The notes beneath the pieces were generated by a model. The model was not told where the DNA came from, searched no databases, and worked only from the letters and a program-made list of their open reading frames with translations. A program made the translations under genes and the position numbers. A DNA stretch of 64,000 nucleotides from Chloroflexales bacterium ZM16-3 (GTDB lineage Bacteria; Chloroflexota; Chloroflexia; Chloroflexales; Chloroflexaceae), in the NCBI GenBank assembly GCA_004138175.2, contig RYFE02000026.1, positions 1 through 64,000 on the forward strand, written 5' to 3'. Numbering within the stretch: the stretch's first letter is position 1; every line of letters starts with the position of its first letter. Below, piece after piece: positions 31,809-64,000 of this stretch.

Positions 31809-33884
31809 TCACTCAATCGCGAAGTAGCGGGTGTTCAGCTCGTTGCTGCTAAAGCTCGGGCCAAAGACCAGCAGCGCGCTCGGCGTATCCTTCGGGATGG
31901 CGACCGCCACCCAGCCCGCCGACTGGCCTCCGGGGTAGAGGTAGAAGGGCATAGTCGGCTCCGGCTCCACCAGCGACGCGTACTTAAGCTCCGTCGCCTC
32001 CACATCCGCAGCGTCGCCGACCACCGAGTAGAAGTTGCTATCGGAGACCATCACCGTCTCATCCTTCGTGCCGATGGAGCGCACCTCAACGAAGGCCAGC
32101 AGGTACTCGGTGCCCTCTTTGGGCGGCTTGTTAAACGAGTTTGCCTCAAGCAGCCGCTGGTACGCCTCGTCGCCGCGCACCATCTCGCGCACCGTCACCT
32201 CATAGTCCTCCGTCGTCACCGTCTCGCCGATGGCGGCCGGCTCGCGCAGATCCTTCCCGAGGGCGGTCGGCTTGATCGCCCGCAGCGCGGGGTCTACGGT
32301 GATCGCGGCCCCCTGATCAATAGCGACGAAGATTGGCTTCGTGTCCGAGTTCGCGAGATCATCGACATGCAAGATCAGCTTGCCCTCGCCGACCCCAACC
32401 AGATACGGGAAGTCAATATTGTGCTCGCTATCGGCGGCATACTCCTCAGGACGCTGGTTCGGCGTCACGGCGGCCACCGGCGCGTAGAGGATCAGCCTCT
32501 CGCTGGTAAGCCGGGGGTAGAGATCGCGCCCCGCATCGCTCCCCACCAGCGCCCGCGCCTTCACGTGGACGATCAGATACTCCTGACCCTCGGGGGCCGG
32601 GTCGTTGTTGGAATTCGTCTCGTAGAGCAGGTTCCACGCCTCGTCGCCACGAGTCACCCCCGTCACCAACACGGCCCAGCTGGCGATCTGGGCCGTTTTG
32701 CCGACAGGCAGCGGATTCGAGCGGCTACCCCCGGCATCGGCCTCGGGCGCGGCACCCGCAGTGGCCGAGATCAGCTCAATCGTCGGCCTCGGCGTCGCCG
32801 TCGCCGACGAGCCCTGTCCGCTGACCGCGCCGCCCGTAAGCAGCTGGAGCAGGAAGAAGACCGCAGCCACCAGGACGCCCACGCTGAGCGCGGCGGCGGC
32901 CCCGATGATCCGCCACTTCATAGATCCCGATGCCTGAGCTGGCGCGCCCTGGGTCTGGACAGTGGGCGCAGCACCCGGCCGGGCCATATTGATCGTCGGC
33001 TGACCAGCACTGCCCGCTACGCCAGCGGCGATCATCGTAGGCGGGACACTCGGCGCAGCGGCGGCCTGCTGCAAGGCACGGCGTAGATCGGCGGCCGAGG
33101 CGGGGCGCTGCGCAGCCGACTGGGCCATCGTCACCTGGAGCAGGTCGCCAAGGGCGGCGGGGATCTGTGGGCGCACCAGATGCGCCGGGCGCAGCGGGTC
33201 GGGCTGTCCCGCCACCAGCGCGGCCGCGCGGGAGAGGGCGTCAGGCGGAGCCTCGCCAGTGAGCAGCTGGTAGACCGTCGCCCCAAAGGAGTAGAGGTCG
33301 CTGCGCGGGTCGGTGCCAGCGCCCTGGATCTGCTCGATCGGGGCGTACTGGGGGGTGTAGCCGAACAGGCTGCGCCCGCCGGTGCTGCCCACGCTGCCCA
33401 GCTCACCCTTGGCCAGGCCAAAGTCGAGCAGAATAATCTCGCCGCGCGGCGTAAGCTTCAGGTTCTGGGGCTTCAGGTCGCGGTGGATGATCGGCGGGCG
33501 CTGGGTGTGCAGGTAGTCAAGGGCGTCGAGCAGGCGATCAGCCCAGGGCAGCACCTCGGCCAGCGGAAACGGCCCGCCCCGGCTGGCCAGCATCGAGGCC
33601 AGGTCATCGCCGGGGATGTACTGCATCACCAGGAACTGGCCATCGCCCTCGGTGAAATGGTCGCTCACCACGGGCAGAGCCGGGTGGTGCAGGCCAGCCA
33701 GCAGCCGGGCCTCGCGCTCGAAGGCCGCCCGCAGCTGCGGGTCGCTCATCAGCGTCTGCTTGAGGGCAACCGTATTGCCCAGGCGCTCATCAACCGCCCG
33801 AAAGACCGCGCCCATGCCGCCCTGGGCGATCAGCGCCTGCACACGGTAGCGGCCCTGGAGGAGGTCGTTGGGGGCGAGGTGCAT
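31809..33884 (-). CDS. Transmembrane Ser/Thr protein kinase with tandem extracellular beta domains
   Basis: A 691-residue PknB-type kinase. Cytoplasmic kinase domain about 1-275: glycine loop YRVQALIAQGGMGAVFRAV, catalytic Lys in VALKQTL, HRDLKPQNLKL, DFGLAKGE, and activation segment GYTPQYAPIEQIQG. After a low-complexity linker there is one membrane helix (about 330-350). The extracellular part holds two copies of the same about 130-residue unit, starting with PLPVGKTAQIASWAVLVTGVTRGDEAW and AAIGETVTTEDYEVTVREMVRGDEAY. Each ends in a YLIVHVKA/YLLAFVEV strand of the DUF4352 type. It likely senses an external signal; the ligand is unknown. Confidence 0.92.
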   Translation of the reverse strand: MHLAPNDLLQGRYRVQALIAQGGMGAVFRAVDERLGNTVALKQTLMSDPQLRAAFEREARLLAGLHHPALPVVSDHFTEGDGQFLVMQYIPGDDLASMLASRGGPFPLAEVLPWADRLLDALDYLHTQRPPIIHRDLKPQNLKLTPRGEIILLDFGLAKGELGSVGSTGGRSLFGYTPQYAPIEQIQGAGTDPRSDLYSFGATVYQLLTGEAPPDALSRAAALVAGQPDPLRPAHLVRPQIPAALGDLLQVTMAQSAAQRPASAADLRRALQQAAAAPSVPPTMIAAGVAGSAGQPTINMARPGAAPTVQTQGAPAQASGSMKWRIIGAAAALSVGVLVAAVFFLLQLLTGGAVSGQGSSATATPRPTIELISATAGAAPEADAGGSRSNPLPVGKTAQIASWAVLVTGVTRGDEAWNLLYETNSNNDPAPEGQEYLIVHVKARALVGSDAGRDLYPRLTSERLILYAPVAAVTPNQRPEEYAADSEHNIDFPYLVGVGEGKLILHVDDLANSDTKPIFVAIDQGAAITVDPALRAIKPTALGKDLREPAAIGETVTTEDYEVTVREMVRGDEAYQRLLEANSFNKPPKEGTEYLLAFVEVRSIGTKDETVMVSDSNFYSVVGDAADVEATELKYASLVEPEPTMPFYLYPGGQSAGWVAVAIPKDTPSALLVFGPSFSSNELNTRYFAIE

Positions 33885-33894
33885 AGTATATATC

Positions 33895-33936
33895 GGGAGG
33901 GGTCTGGGGAGGGCAAGCCCTCCCTAGACCCCTCCC
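33895..33936 (-). terminator. Hairpin between kinase and upstream gene
   Basis: GGGAGGGGTCTGGGGAGGGC pairs with its mirror (one mismatch) around AA. It lies 12 bases after the stop of the unknown gene that starts at 35786. Confidence 0.65.
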
Positions 33937-33947
33937 ATAGCCAGGAG

Positions 33948-45307: not shown

Positions 45308-45379
45308 ACGAACGACCAACGACCAACGACCAATGAGCAATCACGCATCGGCCTTCGTCGTTGGTCGTTGGTCGTTCGT
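45308..45379. repeat. Inverted cassette of CGACCAA heptamers
   Basis: A 23-base arm made of three ACGACCA-phase units (45308-45330) is exactly mirrored at 45357-45379 around a 26-base spacer. It lies between the yceI start and the end of the serine-hydrolase gene, so it could serve as terminator or as 5' leader structure. Confidence 0.9.
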
Positions 45380-45404
45380 CAGTACTGCACTGGAGCAGTG
45401 CGGG

Positions 45405-48046: not shown

Positions 48047-48055
48047 TGCTACCAT
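48047..48055 (+). promoter_or_regulatory. Possible extended -10 of clpB
   Basis: TGCTACCAT lies 28 bases before the clpB ATG. The identical sequence occurs before the ATG at 8906. No heat-shock CIRCE palindrome is present. Confidence 0.35.
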
Positions 48056-48082
48056 AAGCGCAGCACTTCAAAAGGAGGCACT

Positions 48083-50665
<2,583 letters not shown>

Positions 50666-50682
50666 CTTACCCTGCCTGGTTG

Positions 50683-50715
50683 GAATGCGGGGGCGGCAAA
50701 GCCGCCCCCGCATTC
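50683..50715 (+). terminator. Terminator of clpB
   Basis: GAATGCGGGGGCGGC pairs with GCCGCCCCCGCATTC around AAA, 18 bases after the stop, and is followed by TGTTTT. Confidence 0.85.
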
Positions 50716-50887
50716 TGTTTTGCTATAGCGGCGGGCAGAGGAGTTGAGCCTGTCATGAGGAAGACGCGAGCGCAGCGAGCCACCAGATTCAGTGCCTCAG
50801 TGGCTCAAGCATGCTGCTCAGTGCTATAGGGCTGGAGTGCTTCCCCAGAGGACTCTTACGCAATCCTAATGATTACGCCACGATATC

Positions 50888-50915
50888 TTGACATTGCGTA
50901 TGAACCTTGTATAGT
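50888..50915 (+). promoter_or_regulatory. Strong sigma-70-type promoter of the GH5-like gene
   Basis: TTGACA and TATAGT are separated by 16 bases. The start of transcription near 50922 would give an unusually long leader of about 170 bases before ATG 51093; I see no clear riboswitch in it. The rest of the 50716-51092 gap holds no gene. Confidence 0.7.
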
Positions 50916-51092
50916 GATGCGGCAGATACAGGTGAACACACGACCGAGCGTGCCCGTATCACCCTCTCCCTCGATAACCACACCAACCCCAACGGCAGCT
51001 CCTTGGCTCACATTCGGAAGACATAGTTCCTCTCCCAGGGCTAAAGCTCCACAGCATCACCAGCAACCAACCTGAGAGCATTCAGACACCCT

Positions 51093-52238
51093 ATGCCAAA
51101 CTACCGCCTCCGTGCCATGCGCCCTGTCCGCATCTACATGATGATCGCGGCCATGATCTGCACGCTCAGCGCCATGCCCACAGCTGCCAAAGAGATGACG
51201 CCGGATGCCCCCGCCGACGCGCCCCTCCCCGCCATCGCGATCAGCGACGGCCAGCTTGTGGCAGATGGGCAGCCCTTCGAGATCCGCGGCGTGAACTATG
51301 TCCGGCTCACCGGGAGCAGCGATATCTGCTCTGATATCCACTTCGGTGCCGACGGCAGGTGCCCCTGGGATCAGGCGGCCATCGACGCCGACATGGATCG
51401 CATGCAGGCGCTCGGCGTCAACACGATACGGGTCTTCCTGAACTACTATGTCTTCGGCGGGGCCCGCGCCGCCGACCCGGCCTATAACATCAACACGCCC
51501 CTGGAGCATCTGGACAGCCTGATCGCCAGCGCGAACCGCCGGGGGATCTACGTGCTGCCGGTGCTGATGGCCAAGTACCCCCAGGACCGCTTCACCGAGG
51601 ATGGCCTGAGCCAGGCGATCAACCTGCATATTACACCCGTGGCTTGGCACCTAGCGAATCGGACGGGGGTGCTCGCCTGGGATCTCTTCAACGAGCCGGA
51701 TATCGGCAGCCCGATCGACGAGCGCTGCTGGGATTGGGACAACGGCGATTTCCCGCTCTGCAAGGAGCTGGCGATCCAGCGAGCCGACTTCCTGACCGGT
51801 ATCCACTGGCACCTGCGGACGATTGACCCAGCCCACCTGACGACGATCGGCATGGGCTTCGCCAAGAGCTACTTCCGGCCCGCCGAGGCTGGCCCGCGCC
51901 TCGCCGCACTAGTGGATTTCTACTCGTTCCACTACTACGACAACGACCCCTACGATTCGGGGCGCTACGCCCAGCATTGGTACTACGGCCAGGGTCTGCC
52001 CGGCGACCTTCAGCGCGGGATCGACGAGCTGGCGACAATGGCCCAGGCCAAGCCCGTGCTGATTAGCGAGCTGGGCTTCCCCTCGGGGCCAGGTGCCCTG
52101 CGCGATGAGGCCACCCTGCGCCAAGATCTCGCACTGAGCCTACAGACCGCCCGCGATAGCAGGGCCGCCGGCGTGATCCTCTGGCCCTTCCAGCCCAGCC
52201 CCGAGGAGCTGATCGGCGACCTGTTCACCGCCCCATAG
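51093..52238 (+). CDS. Secreted GH5-like (cellulase/mannanase-fold) glycoside hydrolase
   Basis: A 381-residue protein with a signal-peptide-like N-terminus (about 10-32, MMIAAMICTLSAMPTAA). It is a TIM barrel of clan GH-A: RGVNYVRL, GVNTIRVFLNYYVFG, WDLFNEPD (acid/base Glu 201), DFYSFHYYDND, and PVLISELGFPSG (nucleophile Glu 326). Four Cys near 79-90 and 212-223 could form disulfides. The substrate is unknown; GH5/GH113/GH-A mannanase or glucanase types are possible. A strong terminator follows. Confidence 0.8.
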   Translation: MPNYRLRAMRPVRIYMMIAAMICTLSAMPTAAKEMTPDAPADAPLPAIAISDGQLVADGQPFEIRGVNYVRLTGSSDICSDIHFGADGRCPWDQAAIDADMDRMQALGVNTIRVFLNYYVFGGARAADPAYNINTPLEHLDSLIASANRRGIYVLPVLMAKYPQDRFTEDGLSQAINLHITPVAWHLANRTGVLAWDLFNEPDIGSPIDERCWDWDNGDFPLCKELAIQRADFLTGIHWHLRTIDPAHLTTIGMGFAKSYFRPAEAGPRLAALVDFYSFHYYDNDPYDSGRYAQHWYYGQGLPGDLQRGIDELATMAQAKPVLISELGFPSGPGALRDEATLRQDLALSLQTARDSRAAGVILWPFQPSPEELIGDLFTAP

Positions 52239-52261
52239 CCTACATCCCGCAAACCCACCCG

Positions 52262-52460
52262 ATATATGCGCATAAAATGTGCCCGGCAGGCACATGCCGC
52301 ACTGGTTCTGCTGCGGCGCGGCTACGCCGCGCCGCAGCAGAACCAGTTTTTTTGTGGGAGAGCGAAGCTCTCCCACACCCTCACGGTGCGCAGTGTTGTT
52401 GCTGGCAATATATATGCGCATAAAATGGCCAGCTATGCTGGCCATTTTATGCGCATATAT
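52262..52460. repeat. Cluster of palindromes sharing an 18-base word
   Basis: ATATATGCGCATAAAATG occurs at 52262-52279 and 52410-52427, and inverted at 52443-52460. The last two form a perfect 51-base palindrome (24-base arms around TAT). A TGTGCC-CGGCA-GGCACA hairpin follows the first copy. The whole block lies between a terminator and the promoter of the receiver gene. Confidence 0.85.
52301..52353 (+). terminator. Very strong intrinsic terminator
   Basis: A 21-bp perfect stem (arm starting ACTGGTTCTGCTGCGG) with loop CTACG is followed by seven T. A second hairpin, GTGGGAGAG-CGAAG-CTCTCCCAC, follows at 52354-52376. It ends the GH5-like transcript. Confidence 0.92.
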
Positions 52461-52465
52461 CATGG

Positions 52466-52494
52466 TTGACTCGTCGGCATGTTCGACGTATGCT
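52466..52494 (+). promoter_or_regulatory. Promoter of the receiver-like gene
   Basis: TTGACT and TATGCT are separated by 17 bases, immediately beyond the 51-base palindrome. The palindrome is well placed to act as an operator or upstream boundary. Confidence 0.6.
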
Positions 52495-52530
52495 TATAGT
52501 CCGCTATGTTCCGAACGAGGGGAAGTAACT

Positions 52531-52953
52531 ATGAGCGACGGCCAGCAGTATCCGACCATTGTTCTCGCTGGGGCCGACCCGGCCTGGATGTTCGATATGC
52601 AGGCGCACCTGCGCACGATCGTCGGCTGGGACTACGACCTGCTCATGACCTTCTCGGCCAGCCAGGCTCTGCGCTATGTGACGGAGCGCCGGGTGCGCCT
52701 GCTGATCACCGAGGCAATGTTTATGCGCCGCGCCGAGGGCAGCGGTGTAGATCTGGCCCGGCGTGCCCGTGAGCATACGTCCGACATTCAGGTGCTCCTC
52801 ATTCACGATGGCAATGGCGCAACGCTGGCCTCGCCGGATATCGCCCACGCTCTAGAGCGTAAGGCATCCCCCGAGGAGACATACGCGGTGCTGAGCGCTA
52901 TCCTCACGCCAGGCGCATCGGGGCAGGCCGCCGAGCTCTCATCTTCGCTTTAG
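52531..52953 (+). CDS. Degenerate response-regulator receiver (stand-alone)
   Basis: A 140-residue CheY-like protein. ATG 52531 follows GAGGGG. The fold pattern is visible: TIVLAGADPAWMFDMQAHLRTIVG (first strand/helix), SASQALRYVTERRVRLLITEAMFM, DIQVLLIHDG and ALERKASPEETYAVL (Lys near the last loop). The phospho-acceptor strand reads LLITEA, so Asp is replaced by Thr or Glu and the acidic pair after strand 1 is only partly kept (GADP). It is probably a phosphorylation-independent pseudo-receiver; the partner is unknown. Confidence 0.7.
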   Translation: MSDGQQYPTIVLAGADPAWMFDMQAHLRTIVGWDYDLLMTFSASQALRYVTERRVRLLITEAMFMRRAEGSGVDLARRAREHTSDIQVLLIHDGNGATLASPDIAHALERKASPEETYAVLSAILTPGASGQAAELSSSL

Positions 52954-53058
52954 ATTGTCCTCATACCCGGCTTATACAGACAAGCTATCCTACAGGTGTC
53001 ATCGAGAGCCTGATGCGGGGAACTAGGCAAGCGGTGGCGAGCATCTTCTCCCTCCTTA

Positions 53059-53104
53059 ACCACCGGGGGCGCACGGCGAGAGCCGCGCGCCCCCGGTGGT
53101 TTTT
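53059..53104 (+). terminator. Intrinsic terminator before argD/lysJ
   Basis: ACCACCGGGGGCGC pairs with GCGCCCCCGGTGGT, with an inner GGC-GAGA-GCC, and is followed by five T. It closes the receiver transcript. Confidence 0.85.
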
Positions 53105-53114
53105 GTCTGCCTCG

Positions 53115-53123
53115 TGGTATACT
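53115..53123 (+). promoter_or_regulatory. Extended -10 of the aminotransferase gene
   Basis: TGGTATACT (TGn plus TATACT) lies 52 bases before ATG 53175. No -35 match is evident. Confidence 0.5.
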
Positions 53124-53174
53124 TGCCGCACTCAGTGGCATAGCCCTAAACCACACCCCTACCGGAATCTATAA

Positions 53175-54338
53175 ATGTCAAGCGAAGCAATCATCGCTGC
53201 GGAGCAGCAGTTCACCTCGGGGCTCTACCCGAAGCGCCAGGTCGCCATTGTGCGCGGCGAAGGCGCCCGGCTCTACAACGCCGAGGGGCGCATGTTTATC
53301 GACTGCGTGGGAGGGCAGGGTGCGGCGAACCTCGGCCACAGCCACCCGGCGGTGGTGGCCGCCGTGCAGGCCCAGGCCGCCCGGCTGATGAGCTGCCCCG
53401 AGATCTTCCACAATGACGAGCGGGCCGCCTACCTCCAGGAGCTCGCCGCCGCCCTGCCCTTCCCGGCGCGGATCTTCCTCTGCAACAGCGGGGCCGAGGC
53501 GATCGAGGCCGGCCTCAAGTTTGCCCGCCTGCTCAGCGGACGCAAGCAGATCATCGCCACCAAGCGCGGCTTCCACGGGCGCACCATGGGCGCGCTCAGC
53601 GCCACCTGGGAGCCTAAGTACCGCGAGCCCTTCCTGCCCCTGGTGCCCGAGTTCGCCCACGTGCCCTATGGCGACCCGGAGGATCTGGCCGAGGCGGTGG
53701 GCGAGGGGACGGCGGCGGTGCTGCTGGAGCCGGTGCAGGGCGAGGGTGGTGTGCGCCCGGCCCCAGCTGGCTACCTGGAGTCCGCCCGCCGGATCTGCGA
53801 CGAGCGCGGCGCGCTGCTGCTGCTCGACGAGGTGCAGACGGGCTTCGGCCGCACCGGCAGGCTCTTCGGCTGCGAGCATAGCGGCGTGACGCCCGACATC
53901 CTCATTCTGGCTAAGAGCATTGCAGCTGGCTTGCCCATGGGCGCGGTGGCCATCCATGCGCGCCACGGTGCCCTGCCCGGCGGTGCGCACGGCACCACCT
54001 TCGGCGGCAACCCGCTGCTCTGCGCGGCCGCCCGCGCCGCCCTACGCACCTACATCCAGGATGACATCCCGCGCCAGGCCACCGAGAAGGGCGCATGGCT
54101 CGTCGAGCAGCTGCGCGCCCTGAATCTTCCCGCCGTGCGCGAGGTGCGCGGCCTCGGCCTGCTCATCGGCCTGGAGCTGAAGACCCGCGCCCAGCCCTAC
54201 CTCTCCGCCCTGATGGAGCGCGGCGTCCTCGCTCTCCCCGCCGGCCCCACCGTGCTACGCCTCCTGCCACCACTGGTGATCTCCTACGAGGATCTGGAGA
54301 CGGTTGTTCGCGAGATCAAAGCGGTGCTGAGCGTCTAG
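53175..54338 (+). CDS. argD: Acetylornithine / LysW-aminoadipate-semialdehyde aminotransferase
   Basis: A 387-residue class III PLP aminotransferase for arginine or lysine biosynthesis. Signatures: GEGARLYNAEGRMFIDCVGGQGAANLGH, FLCNSGAEAIEAGLKFAR, KRGFHGRTMGALSAT, LLEPVQGEGGVRPA, LLLLDEVQTGFGRTGRLF and the Schiff-base Lys 247 in LAKSIAAGLPMG. The short N-terminus and CVGGQGAANLGH resemble the LysJ/ArgD enzymes that use LysW-bound substrates in Thermus and Chloroflexota, so lysJ is an equally good name. No ribosome binding site is obvious. Confidence 0.92.
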   Translation: MSSEAIIAAEQQFTSGLYPKRQVAIVRGEGARLYNAEGRMFIDCVGGQGAANLGHSHPAVVAAVQAQAARLMSCPEIFHNDERAAYLQELAAALPFPARIFLCNSGAEAIEAGLKFARLLSGRKQIIATKRGFHGRTMGALSATWEPKYREPFLPLVPEFAHVPYGDPEDLAEAVGEGTAAVLLEPVQGEGGVRPAPAGYLESARRICDERGALLLLDEVQTGFGRTGRLFGCEHSGVTPDILILAKSIAAGLPMGAVAIHARHGALPGGAHGTTFGGNPLLCAAARAALRTYIQDDIPRQATEKGAWLVEQLRALNLPAVREVRGLGLLIGLELKTRAQPYLSALMERGVLALPAGPTVLRLLPPLVISYEDLETVVREIKAVLSV

Positions 54339-54366
54339 TGTCGCGTGTCGTCTTCGACTGTCACTC

Positions 54367-54387
54367 AACACCCAACACCTAACACCC
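54367..54387 (+). repeat. AACACCC heptamers abutting the ppx start codon
   Basis: AACACCC, AACACCT, AACACCC run directly into ATG 54388, so the normal ribosome-binding position is occupied by repeat with no purine-rich site. Confidence 0.9.
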
Positions 54388-55899
54388 ATGCAAAAGATCG
54401 GCATCATCGACCTCGGCTCAAACACCACACGCCTAATCGTCATGGCCTACGAGCTGGGGCACTCCTTCCGCCTGATGGATGAGGTTAGCGAGACGGTGCG
54501 CCTGGCCGAGGGCGTCGGCAGCTCGGGCACCCTACGGGCTGCGCCCATCCACCGCGCCGTCGAAGCGCTCTCGATGTTCGAGCGCTTCTGCCACAACACT
54601 GGAGTGACCCAGATCATCGCCGTTGGCACCAGCGCCATCCGTGAGGCACAGAACCAGGATGTGTTCTGGAATGCCCTGCACCAGCAGACGGGCCTCGACC
54701 TCCAGATCATCAGCGCCGAGGAGGAGGCCCACTTCGGCTACCTCGGCACGGTCAACGCCCTCACGATCAGCGACGGCTTTGTCTTCGACACCGGCGGCGG
54801 ATCGACGCAGGTTTCCGCCGTGCGCAACCACCGTCGGCTGCGCAGCTTCTCGGCCCAGGCTGGCGTGCTGCGCTTCACCGAGCGCTTCGTCAAGTCCGAC
54901 CCGATCAGCAAGAACGACATGCGCCGCCTGCGCGAGGGCGCCCAGCAGGCATTTGCCGAGCTCGACTGGGTGCGCGGCGGCGACGGGCTCCAGCTGGCCG
55001 GCATGGGCGGCACCGTGCGGACCCTGGCCCGCATGGACCAGAAGCAGCGCGGCTATCCGCTCGACCGTGTCCACGGCTATGTGCTGGCGCGCGAGTCGAT
55101 CAGCCGCATGATCGAGGAGATGGCCGGGCGCACCCGCCGCGAGCGCGAGTCGATCCCAGGGCTCAAGTCCGACCGCGCCGACGTGAGCCTCGCCGGCGCC
55201 GTGATCATCGACCAGCTCATGGAGCAGGGCGGGTTCAGCGAGCTGACGGTGAGCGGCCAGGGCGTCCGCGAAGGGATCTTCTACAAGCACTTCCTCCAGC
55301 CCGCCGACCCGCCGATCCTGGAGAATCAGCGCGAGTTCAGCATCCTGAACCTGGCCCGCCTGCACGGCTACGAGCCTGCCCACTGCGCCAAGGTCGCCGA
55401 GCTGAGCCTCTCGCTCTACGACCAGCTCGCCCCCATCCACCTCTACGGCGCGTGGGAGCGCGAGCTGCTCGGCTACGCCGCGCTCATCCACGATATCGGC
55501 GTGCAGGTGGGCTACTACGACCACCACAAGCACTCGGCCTACCTGGTGTTCAACGCCGCCATGCTTGGCTTCTCCCACCGCGAGATCATCATCCTGGCAT
55601 GCCTGGTGCGCAACCACCGCAAGGGTATGGCCGACACCGCCGAGTACGCCCAGATCCTCCAGCCCGATGACGAGCAGCGGATCGCCCGCCTGAGCGCCCT
55701 CCTGCGCCTGGCCGAGTACCTGGAGCGCAGCAAGAGCCAGGTCGTCCGCGCCGTTCAGGTGCATGCCACCGAGGACGCCATCCGCATCCTCGTGTACGCC
55801 GATGGCGACCCGACCGTCGAGATCTGGGACGCCAACCGCCGCGCCGGGCTGATGAAGAAAGCCTTTGGCCGCGCCATCGAGATCATCGCCGCCCCATAG
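54388..55899 (+). CDS. Ppx/GppA-type exopolyphosphatase/guanosine-pentaphosphatase with HD domain
   Basis: A 503-residue enzyme hydrolysing inorganic polyphosphate and/or pppGpp. The ASKHA domain has GIIDLGSNTTRLIVM, AVGTSAIREAQN, ISAEEEAHFGYLGTVNAL, FDTGGGSTQVS and GMGGTVRTLARM. The C-terminal HD domain (about 320-500) has HDIGVQVGYYDHHKHSAYLV and ILACLVRNHRKG. Fusion of both domains is usual in the E. coli Ppx/GppA group. The start M-Q-K-I-G directly follows a heptamer repeat, so translation may be leaderless-like or coupled to the aminotransferase. Confidence 0.93.
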   Translation: MQKIGIIDLGSNTTRLIVMAYELGHSFRLMDEVSETVRLAEGVGSSGTLRAAPIHRAVEALSMFERFCHNTGVTQIIAVGTSAIREAQNQDVFWNALHQQTGLDLQIISAEEEAHFGYLGTVNALTISDGFVFDTGGGSTQVSAVRNHRRLRSFSAQAGVLRFTERFVKSDPISKNDMRRLREGAQQAFAELDWVRGGDGLQLAGMGGTVRTLARMDQKQRGYPLDRVHGYVLARESISRMIEEMAGRTRRERESIPGLKSDRADVSLAGAVIIDQLMEQGGFSELTVSGQGVREGIFYKHFLQPADPPILENQREFSILNLARLHGYEPAHCAKVAELSLSLYDQLAPIHLYGAWERELLGYAALIHDIGVQVGYYDHHKHSAYLVFNAAMLGFSHREIIILACLVRNHRKGMADTAEYAQILQPDDEQRIARLSALLRLAEYLERSKSQVVRAVQVHATEDAIRILVYADGDPTVEIWDANRRAGLMKKAFGRAIEIIAAP

Positions 55900-55917
55900 G
55901 GCAAAGAACAGCATAGG

Positions 55918-55956
55918 TATGATGACGTGGGTGCCTTTGGCACCCACATCATCATA
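55918..55956 (+). terminator. Hairpin after ppx
   Basis: TATGATGACGTGGGTGCC pairs with its mirror (one mismatch) around TTT. It lies 18 bases after the stop and ahead of the acylase start. Confidence 0.65.
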
Positions 55957-55977
55957 TCCAAAATGAAGAGATCAACA

Positions 55978-58428
55978 ATGCGGTTGTTTCGGATCATCGG
56001 CCGAGTCCTCGCCGTCGTCGCCGTCCTCGCCCTCGCCCTCGCAGGCGGCGGCTACCTCTGGCTGCGCCGCAGCCTGCCCGCCACCAGCGGCACCGCCCAG
56101 GTGGCCGGCATCTCCGCCCCGGTCACGATCACCCGCGACGCCGACGGCGTGCCCCACATCCGTGGCCAGAGCGAGGCCGACGCGCTCTTCGGGCTCGGCT
56201 ACGCCCACGCCCAGGACCGGCTCTGGCAGATGGAGTTCCAGCGCCGCATCGGCAGCGGCCGCCTCTCCGAGGTCTTCGGCGAGGCCACCCTCGACACCGA
56301 CAAGTTCCTGCGCACCCTCGGCGTGGGCCGCGCCGCCGCCAGCGCCGTGGAAGCCCTCACCCCCGCCACCCGCGCGCTCCTAGAGGCATATGTGGCCGGG
56401 GTCAACGCCTACGTCGAGGGCCACCGCGACGCCCTGCCCGTCGAGTTTACGATCCTCGGCGTCAGCCCCGAGCTATGGAGCGCGGCCGATGTGATCGCCT
56501 GGCAGAAGATGATGGCCTGGGACTTGGGCGGCAACTGGACCGATGAGCTGCTGCGCGCCAACCTGGAGGCCCAGATCGGCCCGGAGGCCACCGCCCAGCT
56601 TATGCCCGGCAGCGGCCCCAGCGACCCGATCATCCTGCCGGACGGGGGAGTCGGGGGTCAGGAGTCGGGAGTCGGTGTTGCCTACACCGATGCTTTTGCG
56701 CACCAGATTCTAGCCACTGACTCCCGACTCCCGACTCCTGACTCCCGACTCCTCGAAATCGGCCGCCAGATCCAGGAGTCCCTCGGCCTCGGCGGCGAGC
56801 TGATCGGCTCGAACAACTGGGTCGTGGCTGGCTCGCGCACCACCACCGGCAAGCCGCTGCTGGCCAACGACCCACACCTCGGCGCGCAGATCCCTTCGAT
56901 CTGGTACCTCGCCCAGATCACCGGCGGGTCCATCGACGCCGTCGGCGCGACCCTCCCCGGCCTGCCCGGCGTCGTGATCGGCCACAACGCCCGCATCGCC
57001 TGGGGCGTCACCAACACCGGCCCCGATGTGCAAGATCTCTATGTCGAGCACGTCAACGCCCGCAACGAGGTGGAGTACAAAGGCCAGTGGGAGCCCCTGA
57101 CGATCATCCCCGAGACGATCAAGGTCAAGGGGCAGGACGACCTGACTCTCTATGTGCGGGTTAGCCGCCACGGCCCGCTGATCTCTGACGTGACCTCGGG
57201 CACCGGCGACCCGCTGGCCTTCCGCTGGACGGCGCTCGACCCCGAGGATAATACGATGGAGGCATTCCTCGGCATCGACCGCGCCCAGAGCTGGGAGGAG
57301 TTCACCGCCGCCCTGACCCATTACCACGCGCCCATGCAGAACTTCGTCTTCGCCGATGTGGATGGCAATATTGGCTACTACGCCCCCGGCGATCTGCCCA
57401 TCCGCGCCCAGGGCGACGGCAGCCGCCCCGCCCCCGGCTGGGACGGATCGCACGACTGGACGGGCTACGCGCCCTTCACCGGCCTGCCCCACAGCTACAA
57501 CCCGCCCGCCGGGTTCATCGCCACCGCCAACAATAAGGTCGTGCCCGACAGCTACCCCTACCTGATCGGCACCGCCTTCGCCGCACCCTACCGCGCCGCC
57601 CGCATCGTCGAGCTGATCCAGGCCAAACCGAAGCTCTCGCCCGACGACATCGCCGCCATGCAGGCCGATGTGGTCTCGCTCCAGGCCCGCGAGATTCTGC
57701 CCTACCTGCTTGAGGCCACGCCCGCCGGTGAGCGCGAGCGCCAGGCACTCGACATGCTGCGCGGCTGGGACGGCACCATGGACGGCGACAGCGCCGCCGC
57801 AGCCGTGTATAACGCCTACTACCAGGCCATCCCCCGGCAGCTCTTCGGCGACGAGCTGCGCGACCTGTTCGAGAGCGACTACACCGGCGAGACGGGGTAC
57901 CAGGCCATGGTGATCGCCCAGACCCTCGCAGGCCAGGGGTCCCCCTGGTGCGACGATGTGAACACCCCGGCCGCCGAGAGCTGCGCCGACACGCTGGGCC
58001 TGGCGCTCACCGCCGGGCTAGAGGATATGGCCGCAGCCCAGGGCAGCGAGAATATCGCCACCTGGCGCTGGGACAAGGTTCACCTAACGATGTTCCCGCA
58101 CAACCCCTTCGACAAAGTCGGCGCGCTCAAGCCGATCTTCAGCCGCAGCGTGCCCAACGGCGGCGACGGCTTCACCGTCGATGTTGCCCCCGTGCGGCGC
58201 AGCGAGCTCTACAAGCAGTACCACGTGCCATCCTACCGCGAGATCATCGACCTGAGCGACCTCGACGCATCCCGGTTCATGCACACGACTGGCCAGTCGG
58301 GCCAGGCGCTGAGCAACAACTACAGCAACTTCATCACGCGCTGGCAGAAGGTCGAGTACCTGCCCATGCGCTTCAGCCAGGCCGCCGTGGATGCCGCAGG
58401 CGCGGGGACACTGACCCTAAGGCCCTAG
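55978..58428 (+). CDS. Penicillin acylase family Ntn-hydrolase
   Basis: An 816-residue precursor with an N-terminal membrane/signal helix (IIGRVLAVVAVLALALAGGGYLWL). The alpha chain includes ITRDADGVPHIRGQSEADALFGLGYAHAQDRLWQMEFQRR. The spacer ends at GELIG and the catalytic Ser 278 in SNNWVVAGSRTTTGKPLLANDPHL opens the beta chain; MTN-type NARIAWGVTNTGPDVQDLY follows. These enzymes hydrolyse amide bonds, often of acyl-homoserine lactones. Residues about 223-260, just before the cleavage site, come from a heptamer-repeat cassette inserted in frame in the excised spacer. Start 55978 was chosen by a weak GAAGAG site. Confidence 0.92.
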   Translation: MRLFRIIGRVLAVVAVLALALAGGGYLWLRRSLPATSGTAQVAGISAPVTITRDADGVPHIRGQSEADALFGLGYAHAQDRLWQMEFQRRIGSGRLSEVFGEATLDTDKFLRTLGVGRAAASAVEALTPATRALLEAYVAGVNAYVEGHRDALPVEFTILGVSPELWSAADVIAWQKMMAWDLGGNWTDELLRANLEAQIGPEATAQLMPGSGPSDPIILPDGGVGGQESGVGVAYTDAFAHQILATDSRLPTPDSRLLEIGRQIQESLGLGGELIGSNNWVVAGSRTTTGKPLLANDPHLGAQIPSIWYLAQITGGSIDAVGATLPGLPGVVIGHNARIAWGVTNTGPDVQDLYVEHVNARNEVEYKGQWEPLTIIPETIKVKGQDDLTLYVRVSRHGPLISDVTSGTGDPLAFRWTALDPEDNTMEAFLGIDRAQSWEEFTAALTHYHAPMQNFVFADVDGNIGYYAPGDLPIRAQGDGSRPAPGWDGSHDWTGYAPFTGLPHSYNPPAGFIATANNKVVPDSYPYLIGTAFAAPYRAARIVELIQAKPKLSPDDIAAMQADVVSLQAREILPYLLEATPAGERERQALDMLRGWDGTMDGDSAAAAVYNAYYQAIPRQLFGDELRDLFESDYTGETGYQAMVIAQTLAGQGSPWCDDVNTPAAESCADTLGLALTAGLEDMAAAQGSENIATWRWDKVHLTMFPHNPFDKVGALKPIFSRSVPNGGDGFTVDVAPVRRSELYKQYHVPSYREIIDLSDLDASRFMHTTGQSGQALSNNYSNFITRWQKVEYLPMRFSQAAVDAAGAGTLTLRP
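56645..56753. repeat. GGGAGTC heptamer inverted cassette inside the acylase gene
   Basis: About four GGAGTCG-phase units (56645-56674) and about five mirrored GACTCCC-phase units (56719-56753) flank a 45-base spacer. The architecture matches the cassette at 58427-58570. The insert is read through in frame. Confidence 0.88.
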
Positions 58429-58570
58429 GGGTCGGGGGTCGGGGGTCGGGAGTCGGGAGTCGGGAGTCGGGAGTCGGGAGTCGATGCTGCTCAGCCACAT
58501 ACTGAGGAATAGCCCGCAGATACATTATCAGCGGAGATCCCGACTCCCGACTCCCGACTCCCGACTCCCC
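58427..58570. repeat. GGGAGTC heptamer inverted cassette between acylase and nrdR
   Basis: Eight GGGRGTC units (58427-58482; the first uses bases of the acylase stop codon), a spacer of about 54 bases, then four mirrored GACTCCC units ending just before the nrdR promoter. Confidence 0.92.
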
Positions 58571-58573
58571 GTA

Positions 58574-58582
58574 TGTTATAAT
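58574..58582 (+). promoter_or_regulatory. Extended -10 promoter of nrdR
   Basis: TGTTATAAT (TGn plus a perfect TATAAT) lies 37 bases before ATG 58619. Its -35 region is formed by the heptamer array. Confidence 0.7.
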
Positions 58583-58618
58583 GCCCCGAAGCACACACCC
58601 GCCGCCCAATAGGACGCT

Positions 58619-59080
58619 ATGCGCTGCCCCTACTGCCAGCATCAGGAAACCGATGTCTCCGACTCACGCAAGCTTAGCGACGGTGAGCTGATCCGGCGGC
58701 GGCGCAAGTGCCGCAATTGCGGCAGGCGCTTCACCACCTACGAGCGCGTCGAGTCCGTCAGCCTGACGGTGGTGAAGAAAGACGGCAAGCGTGAGCCCTA
58801 CGACCGCGAGAAGATTATGCGCGGCGTGCGTACGGCCTGCTACCGTCGGCCGATCTCCGTGCAGCAGATGGAGCAGCTGGTCAACGATGTCGAGGCGGCC
58901 ATGATGGCCACCGATGACCAGGAGATCAGCACACGTGTGATCGGCGACGAGGTCATGCGCCGCCTGCGCGATCTCGACGAAGTAGCCTACATTCGCTTCG
59001 CCTCGGTCTATCGCTCCTTCGCCGACATCGGCAAGCTGCGCGAGGCCGTGGATGAACTGCTGGATAATACTGAAGCGTAA
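58619..59080 (+). CDS. nrdR: Transcriptional repressor NrdR
   Basis: A 153-residue global repressor of ribonucleotide-reductase genes. The zinc ribbon MRCPYC...[14 protein letters not shown] holds four Cys; the ATP-cone domain follows ([30 protein letters not shown]). Length and start are standard. It is the first gene of a plus-strand series that runs to the fatty-acid genes. Confidence 0.98.
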
Positions 59081-59083
59081 CAC

Positions 59084-59112
59084 GTGATGCGTCTACGCGC
59101 ATCACGCATCAC
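59084..59112 (+). terminator. Hairpin built of GCATCAC heptamers after nrdR
   Basis: GTGATGCG pairs with CGCATCAC around the loop TCTACG; a second GCATCAC unit follows. It lies four bases after the nrdR stop. Confidence 0.6.
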
Positions 59113-59126
59113 GGAGCCTTTTTAGC

Positions 59127-60041
59127 ATGAGTGTGGACACCACCCCCGAGCAGCGCGGCGAGAAGAAACCCACCCCCGCTGAGCCGCGCCCATCGATCAT
59201 CCAGCGCGCCACCGCATCGCTCATGCAGGTGCAATGGGGCGAGACCTTGCTGATCGCCCTGGCGATGTCTGCGGCCTGGTGCGGGCTGTTCCTTGCCAAC
59301 AACGTCCTCCAGATCCTCGCCGGGATCGTCCCGGTGATGGCCGGCCTCTACCTGGGCCGACGGGTCAAGGGCAACTACCTGGCCAACGGCATTGTCCTCG
59401 GCGTCGCTGGCTTCTTCTTCGGCCTGATCATTGTGTTTAGCTACGGGCTCCTCGGCAGCGCTGGCATTGTGCCGATGCCCCAACTCAGCCTTACACAAGG
59501 GCAGGACCCACAGACGGCCAGCGCAGGCGACCTCCTCTTTGTCTACCTGACCTTCTCGCTCTTCGCGCTGCTCCCCTTCCCGGCCTTCGGCACGGTGATG
59601 GCCGGGCGCACCGAGCAGCGCAACCGTGAGATGCAGAAAGATATCGATGATCGCGGCGGGAAGCTAGAGAAGCCCGGCGTTGTGCGCACCCTTGAGGATC
59701 TGCGCGGCCTCTCGCTGCCCCAGCTCGGCTCCTACATCGCGAACCTCTACAAGAAGAAGGGCTTCGAGCTCAAGGACTACCGCTTCATCGACAAAGACAA
59801 GCACCTCGACCTGGAGATGGACTATAACGGCGAGCACTACCTGATGCGTCTCTCGGTAGCCGATAAGGTGCGCGTCGGCACCGTCGAGAGCCTCATCCAG
59901 GACATGCGCCGCCGCGAGGTTCGCAAGGGCATCGTCATCACCTCAACCGAGTTTGCCCCTGAGACCATCAAAACGGTCACGAATAAGCGCAACCTGATCG
60001 CCATCGATGGCCAGACGTTATTTGATATCGCCGAGGCGTAG
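59127..60041 (+). CDS. Membrane protein with Mrr-like restriction-endonuclease domain
   Basis: A 304-residue protein. Two hydrophobic blocks form about three to four helices (TLLIALAMSAAWCGLFLA, NGIVLGVAGFFFGLIIVFSYG, LLFVYLTFSLFALLPF). The C-terminal ~110 residues (LPQLGSYIANLYKKKGFELKDYRFIDKDKHLDLEMDYNGEHYLMRLSVADKVRVGTVESLIQDM) follow the Mrr_cat layout. The D-x(n)-E-x-K motif is only partly kept: DLEMDYNGEHYLMRLSV has no clear QxK. It may be a degenerate nuclease or a membrane sensor. It sits between nrdR and fabG, a position it seems to share with related genomes; this is inference. Confidence 0.65.
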   Translation: MSVDTTPEQRGEKKPTPAEPRPSIIQRATASLMQVQWGETLLIALAMSAAWCGLFLANNVLQILAGIVPVMAGLYLGRRVKGNYLANGIVLGVAGFFFGLIIVFSYGLLGSAGIVPMPQLSLTQGQDPQTASAGDLLFVYLTFSLFALLPFPAFGTVMAGRTEQRNREMQKDIDDRGGKLEKPGVVRTLEDLRGLSLPQLGSYIANLYKKKGFELKDYRFIDKDKHLDLEMDYNGEHYLMRLSVADKVRVGTVESLIQDMRRREVRKGIVITSTEFAPETIKTVTNKRNLIAIDGQTLFDIAEA

Positions 60042-60080
60042 GGGCGGCTCGCGAGCCACCTCTACCCGATGTGGAAATGA

Positions 60081-60836
<756 letters not shown>

Positions 60837-60857
60837 CGGTGCCGCCGCCGACGCCGT

Positions 60858-60881
60858 AGGGACGCAGCGCGCTGCGTCCCT
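60858..60881 (+). terminator. 24-base palindrome after fabG
   Basis: AGGGACGCAGCG is followed by its exact mirror. No T-run follows, so it may be an attenuator or REP-like element in the fabG-accC gap. Confidence 0.55.
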
Positions 60882-60905
60882 GCACCGGGATGCTAGAAAT
60901 ACGTT

Positions 60906-62279
60906 ATGTTAAATAAAGTTCTAGTCGCGAACCGTGGCGAGATCGCCGTCCGCATCATCCGCGCCTGCCAGGAGCTTGGCATTCGCACCGTGGCCGCATT
61001 TAGCGAGGCCGACCGCGACTCGCTGGCTGTGCGCCTGGCCGATGAGGCCGTCTGCATCGGGCCGGCCGCGCCCGCCCGCTCCTACCTCAATACGCCGGCC
61101 CTGATCAGCGCGGCCCTGATCACCGGCTGCGACGGCATCCACCCCGGCTACGGGTTCCTCTCGGAGAACCCCTACTTCGCCGAGATCTGCGCCGAGTGCA
61201 AGCTCGTCTTCATCGGCCCAGAAGCCGAGACGATCCGCCTGATGGGCGACAAATCGATCGGACGACAGACGATGCGCGAGGCCGGGGTGCCGATCATCCC
61301 CGGCTCTGAGGGCGAGCTGCGCTCGGTCGAGGAGGCCATCGACCTGGCCCGCCAGATCGGCTACCCCGTGCTGCTCAAGCCCAGCGCCGGCGGCGGCGGG
61401 CGCGGTATGCGCGTGGCCCAAGATGAGAACGACCTGCTGCGGGCCTACCCCACCGCCCGCGCCGAGGCCGAGGCCGCCTTCGGTCGCGGCGATCTGATTC
61501 TAGAGAAGTACCTGCCGAAGGTGCGCCATATCGAGATCCAGGTGCTCGCCGATGCCTACGGCCACGCCATCCACCTCGGCGAGCGCGACTGCTCGGCCCA
61601 GCGCCGCCACCAGAAGATCCTCGAAGAGTCGCCCTCGCCGGTGGTCGGCCCCGAACTGCGCGCCCGCATGGGTGCCGATGCCCTGCGCGGCATCCAGACG
61701 ATCGGCTACCGCAATGCTGGCACCCTTGAGTTTCTGATGGACCCCGACGGAAACTACTACTTTATCGAGATGAATACCCGCATTCAAGTCGAGCACCCGG
61801 TGACAGAACTCGTCACCAATACCGACCTGCTACGCTGGCAGCTGCTGATCGCCTCCGGCGAACGCTTGACGCTCCAGCAGAATGATATTAGAATAGCCCG
61901 ACACGCGGTTGAGTGTCGTATTAATGCGGAAGATCCCAAGCGGGATTTTCTGCCGGCCGGCGGCGAGATCGAGTTTTTCCTACCACCCGGCGGCCCCGGT
62001 GTGCGAGTCGACTCGCATATCTACGCCGGGTACACGCCGCCCCAGAACTACGACTCGCTACTGGCGAAGATTATCACCTACGGGGACACGCGCGACGACG
62101 CCCTCAACCGTATGCGCCGCGCCCTGAACGAGTGCATTATCACCGGGGTCAAGACGACGATCCCGTTTCAACTTCGCCTGGTCGATGACTCGGCCTTCCG
62201 CGCCGGGAATATCTCGACAAGCTACGTCGCCGATCTGCTGCAGCGCTGGAAGGAAGAGCGCGCGATGGCCGAGGCATAG
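60906..62279 (+). CDS. accC: Biotin carboxylase (acetyl-CoA carboxylase subunit)
   Basis: A 457-residue ATP-grasp enzyme that carboxylates biotin on BCCP. Signatures: VLVANRGEIAVRIIRACQELGI, HPGYGFLSENPYFAEIC, the glycine-rich ATP loop KPSAGGGGRGMR, ERDCSAQRRHQKILEESPSP, FIEMNTRIQVEHPVTE (catalytic Glu/Arg) and the C-terminal YDSLLAKIITYGDTRDDALNRMRRAL. Length is normal. The N-terminus MLNKVLVANRG sets the start. No accB lies beside it. Confidence 0.98.
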   Translation: MLNKVLVANRGEIAVRIIRACQELGIRTVAAFSEADRDSLAVRLADEAVCIGPAAPARSYLNTPALISAALITGCDGIHPGYGFLSENPYFAEICAECKLVFIGPEAETIRLMGDKSIGRQTMREAGVPIIPGSEGELRSVEEAIDLARQIGYPVLLKPSAGGGGRGMRVAQDENDLLRAYPTARAEAEAAFGRGDLILEKYLPKVRHIEIQVLADAYGHAIHLGERDCSAQRRHQKILEESPSPVVGPELRARMGADALRGIQTIGYRNAGTLEFLMDPDGNYYFIEMNTRIQVEHPVTELVTNTDLLRWQLLIASGERLTLQQNDIRIARHAVECRINAEDPKRDFLPAGGEIEFFLPPGGPGVRVDSHIYAGYTPPQNYDSLLAKIITYGDTRDDALNRMRRALNECIITGVKTTIPFQLRLVDDSAFRAGNISTSYVADLLQRWKEERAMAEA

Positions 62280-62355
62280 CGAACAGGCATATTAGGTAGC
62301 ATGGTGGATCGCTGCTTAACAAGTTATACCGCAGCCCTACCCTGGGAGGTTCGCC

Positions 62356-62808
62356 GTGGGTAGTCTACGCCACCGGGTGCGCATCGCGGCGCTACAAACC
62401 CTCTTTGAGGTTGACGCCACCGACCACCCACTCGACGTGGTCTATGAGCGCAGCCTCGCCGATGAGGAGCTGCCGTCAGATGGCGAGCGCTTCCTCAGCC
62501 GAATCGTCTTTGGGTGCTGGGAGCACCGCACCTACCTCGACCGGATCATCGAGGAGGCCGCGCCGAACTGGCCGGTCACCCAGATGCCCGGTATCGATAA
62601 GACGATCCTGCGGATCGCACTCTTTGAGCTGCTGATCGATGAGGATGAGCAGACACCGGTGAAGGCGGTGATCAATGAGGCCGTTGAGCTCGCCAAGCAC
62701 TTCGGCAGCGATAACTCAAGTCGCTTTGTGAACGGAGTCCTCGGCACGGTGGTCAGCCGCCACCGCCCAGGGAACGAAGACCTGCTCGCCAGTGATGGCG
62801 ATGAGTGA
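62356..62808 (+). CDS. nusB: Transcription antitermination factor NusB
   Basis: A 150-residue all-helical RNA-binding protein of the rRNA antitermination complex. [23 protein letters not shown] and the C-terminal [48 protein letters not shown] are diagnostic. The start is GTG at 62356 with GGGAGG eight bases upstream. Confidence 0.96.
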
Positions 62809-62840
62809 GCGGGATCAACCGCCCCATGCTTGGTTCCGCT

Positions 62841-62874
62841 CTGCCGCGGCGGGCGGGCCCGCCCGCCGCGGCAG
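62841..62874 (+). terminator. 34-base perfect GC palindrome between nusB and acpP
   Basis: CTGCCGCGGCGGGCGGG is exactly mirrored. It has no T-run. It lies 32 bases after the nusB stop and 38 before the ACP start. Confidence 0.65.
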
Positions 62875-62912
62875 CGAACATAGAGACTCTATACACGAAA
62901 GGTAGATAGTCC

Positions 62913-63164
62913 ATGGCTTCTCAGGAGATCCAGGATCGCCTGCGCAAGATCGTCGCCGAGCAGCTCGGTGCCGACGAGACCAGCGTCGTCCCTAACGCCC
63001 ACTTCACCGATGACCTGAACGCCGACTCGCTCGACCTCGTCGAGCTGATTATGGCCCTCGAAGAGGAATTCGGCATCGAGATCCCCGACGATGATGCCGA
63101 GAAGATTGTCACCGTTGGCGACGCCCTCAGCTACATCGACGCCCACATGCCCGAGGCCGAGTAG
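62913..63164 (+). CDS. acpP: Acyl carrier protein
   Basis: An 83-residue ACP. The phosphopantetheine Ser 39 lies in [30 protein letters not shown], the standard [15 protein letters not shown] motif of fatty-acid ACPs. The protein is acidic and helical. AAAGG is upstream but distant. Close to accC and fabG, it completes a fatty-acid-synthesis neighbourhood. Confidence 0.97.
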
Positions 63165-63186
63165 CACCACCGCAAAGATCTATCAG

Positions 63187-63218
63187 GCCCCCCTCCTCCA
63201 TATGCGGAGGAGGGGGGC
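63187..63218 (+). terminator. Terminator of acpP
   Basis: A 13-bp stem GCCCCCCTCCTCC / GGAGGAGGGGGGC closes on an ATATGC loop, followed by TCTGTT. Confidence 0.85.
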
Positions 63219-63331
63219 TCTGTTCATGGTAAGATAGAAGAGTCCCACAGCTGTTGTAACGTCTCTGGGGTTCCCTCCATGCGCATAGTGTAGATTTCCT
63301 CATGCGCATGGCGCTCCGCCCCAGACCTCGC

Positions 63332-63408
63332 TTTTTGTTGGGATTGGGCGGCGTAGTCGCCCAATCCCAACAAAAAACATACCGTGGGGGCGGCGCAGCC
63401 GCCCCCAC
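63332..63408. terminator. Two further hairpins before tatA/B
   Basis: A 19-bp stem (TTTTTGTTGGGATTGGGCG and mirror, loop GCGTAGT; 63332-63376) ends in A and T runs on both sides, so it is bidirectional. Then GTGGGGGCGGC-GCA-GCCGCCCCCAC follows at 63384-63408. The 63165-63431 gap holds no gene. Confidence 0.8.
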
Positions 63409-63431
63409 ACCCCCACCGGGGCGAAGAACCT

Positions 63432-64000
63432 ATGGAGATTTTTAACGTCGGCATCCCCGAGCTTATGGTGATCGCCGGGCTGGCCCTGGTGGTCTTCGGC
63501 CCTGAGCGGCTGCCTGAGGTCGGGCGCTTCCTCGGCAAGCAGGTCGCCAGAGTGCTCGCCTGGCAGCAGAACTCGCCCGAGCTCCAGATGCTCAACGAGG
63601 TGCGCGGTGAGTTCGAGTCCGAGATCGCCAGCCTGCGCGATGAGCTGGTGCGCACCCGTAAGCAGCTCGATGTCTCCAAAGACATCTCCGCGATCAAAGA
63701 GGAGCTGCGGCCCATGCTCGACCTGCGCGGCAGCACCAACGGAGCCGTCCAGGCTGCCGCCGCAAAGGCGACCGAGCCGACAATCGCCCCGCCCCACCCC
63801 GCCGAGAGTATAAGCCCAGCCGAGGTAGCACCCGCCGAGCTCGCGCCGCCTGCAAAGCCCCCGACGCTCAACCCCACCCCCGCAGGGCAGACGATCCCGG
63901 CAGCCGCCCGGCCTAGCAAGCTCGTCGCCGCCGAGCCGACCAATGTGCTCGCGCCGCCGCAGCTCGCCGCCGCCCCGCCCGCCGCCGCACCCGACAACCA
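63432..64000 (+). CDS. Twin-arginine translocase subunit TatA/TatB (3' end outside window)
   Basis: At least 189 residues, cut by the window end. MEIFNVGIPELMVIAGLALVVFGPERLPEVGRFLGKQVARV is the single helix plus the FGPxxLPE amphipathic hinge of TatA/B. A long coiled region (ELQMLNEVRGEFESEIASLRDEL) and an Ala/Pro-rich tail favour TatB. It shows that the Tat pathway implied by the leader on the methyltransferase at 5968-6822 exists in this genome. Confidence 0.93.
   Translation, partial: MEIFNVGIPELMVIAGLALVVFGPERLPEVGRFLGKQVARVLAWQQNSPELQMLNEVRGEFESEIASLRDELVRTRKQLDVSKDISAIKEELRPMLDLRGSTNGAVQAAAAKATEPTIAPPHPAESISPAEVAPAELAPPAKPPTLNPTPAGQTIPAAARPSKLVAAEPTNVLAPPQLAAAPPAAAPDN

Follow-up and report, generated by a model that had tools for sequence, protein, structure and literature searches.

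Mirrored heptamer cassettes with a purine-rich first arm occupy shared sites with changing units in two congeneric Chloroflexales genomes

The window analysed here is a stretch of 64,000 nucleotides from Chloroflexales bacterium ZM16-3. It belongs to contig C47, one of the 127 contigs of a 6.27-Mb genome referred to as G000. At three places in the window, an array of seven-base units is followed by a spacer and then by an array of the reverse-complementary unit (Table 1). All three mirrored cassettes lie where the preliminary description had located them (cassette 1 at 56645-56753, cassette 2 at 58427-58570, cassette 3 at 45308-45380), and their spacers are indeed unlike.

Cassette 1 is found inside a protein-coding gene. 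Its units are imperfect (GGGAGTC, GGGGGTC and AGGAGTC), and its site is a linker of the amidase whose length varies across homologues. In a Roseiflexaceae homologue (L050), a different heptamer, CCCTCAG/CCCTCAA, is present in the same linker. In the congeneric genome G004, the site is a GTAGAGACGCCCC palindrome. The best named relatives of the amidase are records from Herpetosiphonaceae and other Chloroflexota.

The TAG stop of the amidase gene marks the start of cassette 2, whose right arm runs up to a -10-like element with identical letters in the genomes G002, G003 and G004. The site upstream of nrdR occurs in four states: GGGAGTC units in G000, GGAGGTT units in G004, a non-heptamer palindrome in G003, and nothing in G002. 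The right arm of cassette 3 lies about 25 bases past the 3' end of a minus-strand open reading frame (45405-46913). Cassette 3 also coincides with a break in gene order relative to G004, where its flanks map to two contigs (C110 and C99).

Table 1. Features of the window discussed in the text.
Feature	Position	Strand	Remarks
Intergenic GGGAGGGGTCT... palindrome	33884..33947	.	Orthologous G004 site is an AATGTTG mirrored cassette
Cassette 3, left arm	45308..45333	+	(ACGACCA)n, unit equals CGACCAA
Cassette 3, spacer, 23 b	45334..45356	+	
Cassette 3, right arm	45357..45380	+	(TGGTCGT)n
Penicillin-amidase family gene (PF01804)	55927..58428	+	Carries cassette 1 in frame
Cassette 1, left arm	56645..56675	+	(GGGAGTC)n, variants GGGGGTC and AGGAGTC
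Cassette 1, spacer, ~40 b	56676..56715	+	In-frame read-through within the penicillin-amidase gene
Cassette 1, right arm	56716..56753	+	(GACTCCC)n, variant GACTCCT
Cassette 2, left arm	58427..58483	+	GGGGTCG units, then (GGGAGTC)n
Cassette 2, spacer, 54 b	58484..58537	+	Missing from the G004 counterpart
Cassette 2, right arm	58538..58570	+	(GACTCCC)n
TATGTTATAAT, -10-like element before nrdR	58572..58582	+	Directly beyond the cassette 2 right arm
nrdR (Zn ribbon and ATP cone)	58619..59080	+	Downstream of cassette 2

Each cassette is predicted to fold into a strong hairpin. The predicted energies of cassettes 1, 2 and 3 are -74.2, -94.8 and -45.4 kcal/mol, values that none of 200 shuffles matched (z -10.0, -7.3 and -8.5). 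A known structured RNA was rejected as their identity, with no Rfam match at the gathering score in positions 44000-64000 of the window.

Mirrored cassettes are dispersed throughout the genome. Two exact copies of GGGAGTC, a gap of 20 to 80 bases and two copies of GACTCCC are matched 40 times in G000, counting overlaps, which corresponds to 22 distinct loci. G004, whose long aligned segments are 82-92% identical in the part of the window compared, also has many cassettes, built from units other than GGGAGTC. In the sampled parts of both genomes, the mirrored cassettes use 29 left-arm units. The genome-wide collection that the preliminary description had proposed confirms that the layout recurs, at many loci rather than a few and with units that differ between G000 and G004.

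Seven is also the dominant repeat period. A 451-kb sample of G000 contains 171 exact tandem runs of period 7 and at most 31 of any other period from 4 to 14; its control, a first-order Markov sample, contains one period-7 run. Expressed per Mb, there are 324 period-7 runs in 666 kb of G000 and 237 in 553 kb of G004, compared to 41 and 43 runs of period 6 and to 20 period-7 runs in sampled loci from other organisms. Because the 451-kb sample and the first G000 stretches were partly picked around GGGAGTC matches (contig C1 was completed later), the repeat densities of G000 are somewhat inflated.

Arrays with the same unit are inverted neighbours far more often than random placement predicts. Pairs no more than 200 bp apart number 41 in G000, about tenfold above the 3.9 expected (at most 11 in any of 300 random placements), and 29 in G004, where 1.5 are expected (at most 6). 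The idea that the cassettes are due to chance, base composition or faulty assembly draws on the G+C-rich background only; given the shuffle, Markov and placement controls, and counterparts at orthologous sites in a separate genome, its probability is negligible. The mirrored heptamer layout is real, abundant, polar and fast-evolving.

Cassettes of the form GGGANTC were found in just three of 400 genomes across the phylum (39, 1 and 1 matches), so this unit is local; the GGGAGTC cassette was found in none of 30 relatives. Within G000, at about 8590-9970 of the stretch C13:85001-105000 (L140), GGGAGTC-family cassettes with near-identical spacers recur every ~330 bp, as if they were carried by a larger tandem repeat.

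The two arms follow a preferred order. Where arrays of opposite type are neighbours within 200 bp, the purine-rich array precedes the pyrimidine-rich one in 118 cases and follows it in 8 (67 vs 4 in G000, 51 vs 4 in G004). Mirrored loci are purine-first in 111 of 114 cases, covering 26 of 29 units, and the exact-unit set is purine-first throughout (73 of 73 loci, 15 of 15 units). Among the three pyrimidine-first loci are C1:31764, in which two adjacent cassettes were joined, and C1:78435 of G004, in which non-identical units were paired. For GGGAGTC itself, the reverse order has no match beside the 40 of the forward order, the gap ranges being different (0 to 60 and 20 to 80 bases). The same polarity holds in divergent regions and inside predicted genes.

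Polarity extends beyond mirrored cassettes. Unpaired intergenic arrays tend to follow it too, with purine-rich ones beside the left gene edge and pyrimidine-rich ones beside the right (60/75 and 37/44). Intergenic palindromes that are not made of heptamers lean purine-first as well, though more weakly than the cassettes, by 146:47 and 146:28, or by 74:29 and 78:19 once copies sharing 9-mers are removed. No such lean was seen for palindromes within genes (64:48 and 60:62), or in sampled loci of other organisms with intergenic and coding palindromes pooled (82:79).

Two other accounts of the polarity were rejected. A general purine gradient of intergenic DNA is absent: in 116 and 89 repeat-free regions, the left half minus the right gives -0.02 and -0.01. 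A keto rule (G/T first), an idea drawn from the template-switch literature as excerpted from PMC8794818, performs less well than the purine-first rule, describing 98 of 114 loci and 19 of 29 units. The purine-first rule could stem from fold-back copying from purine-rich nascent strands, or from transcription favouring purine 5' arms.

The arms of a cassette are matched in unit. Among purine-then-pyrimidine neighbours, 39 of 67 and 36 of 51 share the same unit, whereas about 9 and 7 do so after shuffling. Finer likeness between arms is less uniform: unit variants do not follow a more similar order in the two arms than they do after shuffling (35 cassettes, p 0.35), and in a test that is partly circular, pairs having been chosen for matching units, within-cassette arm likeness is not significant in two of six sets (GGGAGTC, p 0.11; AGATTGC of G004, p 0.13).

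An example of a change common to both arms can be found at C1:366046. Both arms there consist of GCAGATG units throughout, the G004 counterpart has GCAGATT in both, and the outermost half-units are unchanged. No further mirrored cassette of the sample has GCAGATG as its left arm. Similarly, C1:119989 consists mainly of TGAATGC and its counterpart mainly of TGAATGT. At C1:355505, the spacer aligns with that of C1:453879 in G004 in inverted orientation (score 40 vs 16), while both flanks keep the same orientation; of about five spacer pairs that can be aligned, this one is inverted and about four are not. These observations suggest that one arm is recopied from the other. They also uphold the view, already put forward in the preliminary description, that more than simple slippage is involved.

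A mirror could, in principle, also be maintained by selection alone. Two slippage arrays would then evolve independently on either side of a tolerant spacer, with RNA-hairpin selection fixing compensatory changes and no copying between arms. Cassettes that adjoin stop codons, and hairpins that persist at a site despite differing sequences, are both consistent with this idea. It is nevertheless improbable, as the arms share units far above shuffled pairing, a unit new to both arms appeared at once at C1:366046, and the C1:355505 spacer is inverted.

The turnover of cassettes can be followed by comparing orthologous sites, many of which are counted here from both genomes. From 65 cassettes of G000, 40 without anchors and two with weak flanks were dropped, leaving 23 that could be judged in G004. 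Twenty of these correspond to a hairpin of some kind, namely 16 mirrored cassettes and four other hairpins; the remaining three sites are short or empty. Although the site is kept, the unit is altered in 11 of the 16 mirrored counterparts: six units are one or two bases off, five are different, and five are the same.

The reverse comparison started from G004. After 13 of 49 G004 cassettes without anchors and one with weak flanks were dropped, 35 were judged (the cassettes at 237192 and 237213, both among the 49, are one locus). Their G000 sites hold 15 mirrored cassettes, 12 other hairpins, one array only, three sequences without a hairpin and four short or empty alleles. At least four of the 12 other hairpins (208522, 231388, 3519 and 44559) look like degenerate cassettes, and C161:112175, counted among the four short alleles, is clipped, its G000 partner being the cassette C73:189856. 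Six of the 15 mirrored counterparts have the same unit, five a unit one or two bases off, and four another unit.

A mirrored region in G000 makes a hairpin of some kind at the orthologous place in G004 more likely. Among 154 orthologous intergenic regions, 14 of the 15 that are mirrored in G000 have a mirror (10) or a hairpin (4) in G004. Where G000 has neither, 24 of 71 regions have one in G004 (Fisher p 2e-5). Non-heptamer palindromes such as GGGAGGGGTCT.., TAAGGGCGCAGCAGC.. and GTAGAGACGCCCC.. sit at sites that carry heptamer cassettes in the sister genome, and they lean purine-first.

The explanation that we consider probable combines array growth by slippage, arm matching by template switching, and retention of the hairpin as a structure at the 3' end. 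Each arm would gain and lose heptamer units through replication slippage. Template switching between the inverted arms would copy one from the other (quasipalindrome correction), so that they stay complementary; a new unit variant would be spread to both arms in this way, and the spacer sometimes inverted. Despite the turnover of its sequence, the hairpin would stay in place, probably serving as an insulating structure or as one at the mRNA 3' end. Template switching is proposed because homogenised arms and inverted spacers are the outcomes reported for switching between inverted repeats in the available portions of PMC8604942 and PMC8794818. From these patterns we infer template switching as the copying step, selection on the hairpin, and the way in which unrelated units replace one another. 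Template switching alone cannot turn one unit into an unrelated one, and it leaves both the period of seven and the non-heptamer palindromes at cassette sites without explanation.

Alternatively, the sites may be fixed hairpin slots, mostly behind genes. Unrelated hairpins would replace one another there, and a strand-polar process in which the purine-rich arm must lead would make or select them. This is a tentative reading to which we give less than even chances. A separate proposal, that long palindromes persist because SbcD has been lost, was rejected, since SbcD is present in all six genomes.

Cassettes might also be mobile. Small non-autonomous elements, similar to MITEs or REPs, would insert as blocks of unit, spacer and mirror and prefer sites behind genes; a strong target preference would even account for unlike units at one and the same position. 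In favour of such elements are a single clear near-empty site (C1:305496) and one AGATTGC spacer stretch common to two distant G004 cassettes. Members of a MITE family have an interior common to their copies. Here, the 71 spacers of at least 18 bases are mostly unrelated; apart from orthologous loci and a single local tandem cluster, few are alike. A minority of counterpart sites are short or empty (3/23 and 4/35), and clean empty sites, at which a target-site duplication could be seen, are few. The two-arm single-base change at C1:366046 left the outer half-units intact, and a search for the Y1 transposase family PF01797, at the level of the whole family, gave five matches in G000 and none in the cassette-rich G004. 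Mobility is therefore an unlikely origin, and a Y1 transposase can be rejected as a necessary motor. Of the mechanisms that the preliminary description had offered as examples, hairpin-templated copying fits the two-arm change and the inverted spacer, and mobile insertion is unsupported as a general mechanism. A comparison with the congeneric G004, in place of the strains that it suggested, found differing units often and short or empty sites in a minority of cases.

Some spacers do resemble each other. The G004 cassettes C161:102740 and C1:286215 have a spacer stretch in common, in inverted orientation, and a third site, C73:219188 of G000, has a GCATTCTATTGCGC-like end; a small dispersed element is possible. 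In the spacer of cassette C1:50461, a 109-base stretch is also present in a G004 cassette of another unit.

Cassettes mostly lie at gene 3' ends, and their position relative to genes, as placed by a custom codon-usage caller, is informative for their role. Between tandem genes (n=49), cassettes start a median of 3 bp past the upstream stop (quartiles -1 and 13) and end a median of 34 bp short of the next start; the stop is the nearer of the two in 39 of 48 untied cases. A role at the mRNA 3' end is suggested by these REP-like starts near stop codons. A classical terminator is unsupported, because convergent gene pairs show no excess of mirrored cassettes (2 of 25 regions, compared to 11 of 107 for tandem and 2 of 22 for divergent pairs) and cassettes 1-3, on reading of the sequence, have no T run behind them. 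The general position of cassettes behind genes would suit an intrinsic terminator; the lack of T runs at these three does not.

Several known systems are similar in part. Cyanobacterial STRR sequences, named as the nearest parallel in the preliminary description, are tandem repeats of seven-base units in heterocystous cyanobacteria, and a mirrored layout is not known to be part of their definition. The cassettes described here share the seven-base tandem units and differ in host phylum, the amidase relatives being Chloroflexota. The nearest published parallel found, closer than STRR, is provided by the convergent GGGAATC pairs of Xanthomonas. In the accessible part of Rehm et al. 2015 (PMC4692102), the heptamers GGGAATC and GGGGA(C/T)T of Xanthomonas and Nostoc form dispersed G-rich arrays, mostly intergenic and close behind ORFs, whose position is largely conserved between species while their length varies. 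Convergent, G-rich-first pairs are reported in 70 and 75 cases. That part of the paper offers slippage for heptamers in general and no mechanism for inverted pairs.

Dispersed arrays behind ORFs, convergent G-rich-first pairs and kept positions are thus common to that system and to the present one, and convergent heptamer pairs as a kind are already published for Xanthomonas (PMC4692102, as far as excerpted). Unlike the single unit type described there, the 29 left-arm units found here include many without G runs; the GGGAGTC family fits the Xanthomonas-type form GGGANTN (at least two tandem copies), and most other units do not. Unit replacement at orthologous sites, two-arm unit change and spacer inversion are further differences from what that excerpt describes.

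Replacement of heptamers has been reported in another setting. According to the available text of PMC4476775, the P6b stem of the Nostoc trnL intron is built from complementary Class I and Class II heptamers, and motifs were replaced repeatedly at this one site with the fold kept. The replacement reported there concerns a single cyanobacterial intron stem, whereas many intergenic sites are involved here. Template-switch hairpins, or quasipalindromes, share arm homogenisation and spacer inversion (one case here) with the cassettes; the excerpted studies (PMC8604942, PMC8794818) deal with short arms in yeast and with RNA genes, in contrast to the polar arms of tandem heptamers described above.

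GTAG REP palindromes are short, lie behind genes, often touch the stop codon, and are reported in Chloroflexi in the portion of PMC3733652 available. Compared to these, cassettes 1-3 of the window lack GTAG at the hairpin base, no fixed palindrome sequence is seen, and the Y1 family is distributed as given above. TAACTGA heptamers of Beggiatoaceae and cyanobacteria occur as many dispersed arrays near ORFs, across distant phyla (PMC4679880, in part). In that excerpt they are direct repeats (169 sets, a single one inverted), mostly upstream of start codons. Heptamers are also, in work cited there, the most abundant longer class of simple repeats in most repeat-rich bacterial genomes surveyed.

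Three features look new: a polarity rule that covers many units, the replacement of units, and the inversion of a spacer. The open-licence literature yielded no report of unit replacement at orthologous intergenic sites, of spacer inversion or of a purine-first rule for heptamer cassettes. Two congeneric, cassette-rich genomes with common sites in different states make the origin of heptamers and of their mirrors directly testable. The step that copies between the arms, the reason for a period of seven and the reason for a leading purine arm can all be addressed. If hairpins do persist as their letters change, the cassettes would also be a natural example of structure conserved without sequence.

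Other repeats occur in the same window. A 36-base sequence at 47237-47307 is duplicated head to tail with 91% identity. Units of 8 or 11 bases around CACTGAGG / CCTCAGTG form tandem arrays at 38268-38312, 40385-40465 and 50789-50807, the first two arrays lying about 2 kb apart in opposite orientation. Finally, short stretches at 52278-52408, 50721-50830 and 63309-63424 are multi-copy in G004, G003 or G002 and look MITE-type.
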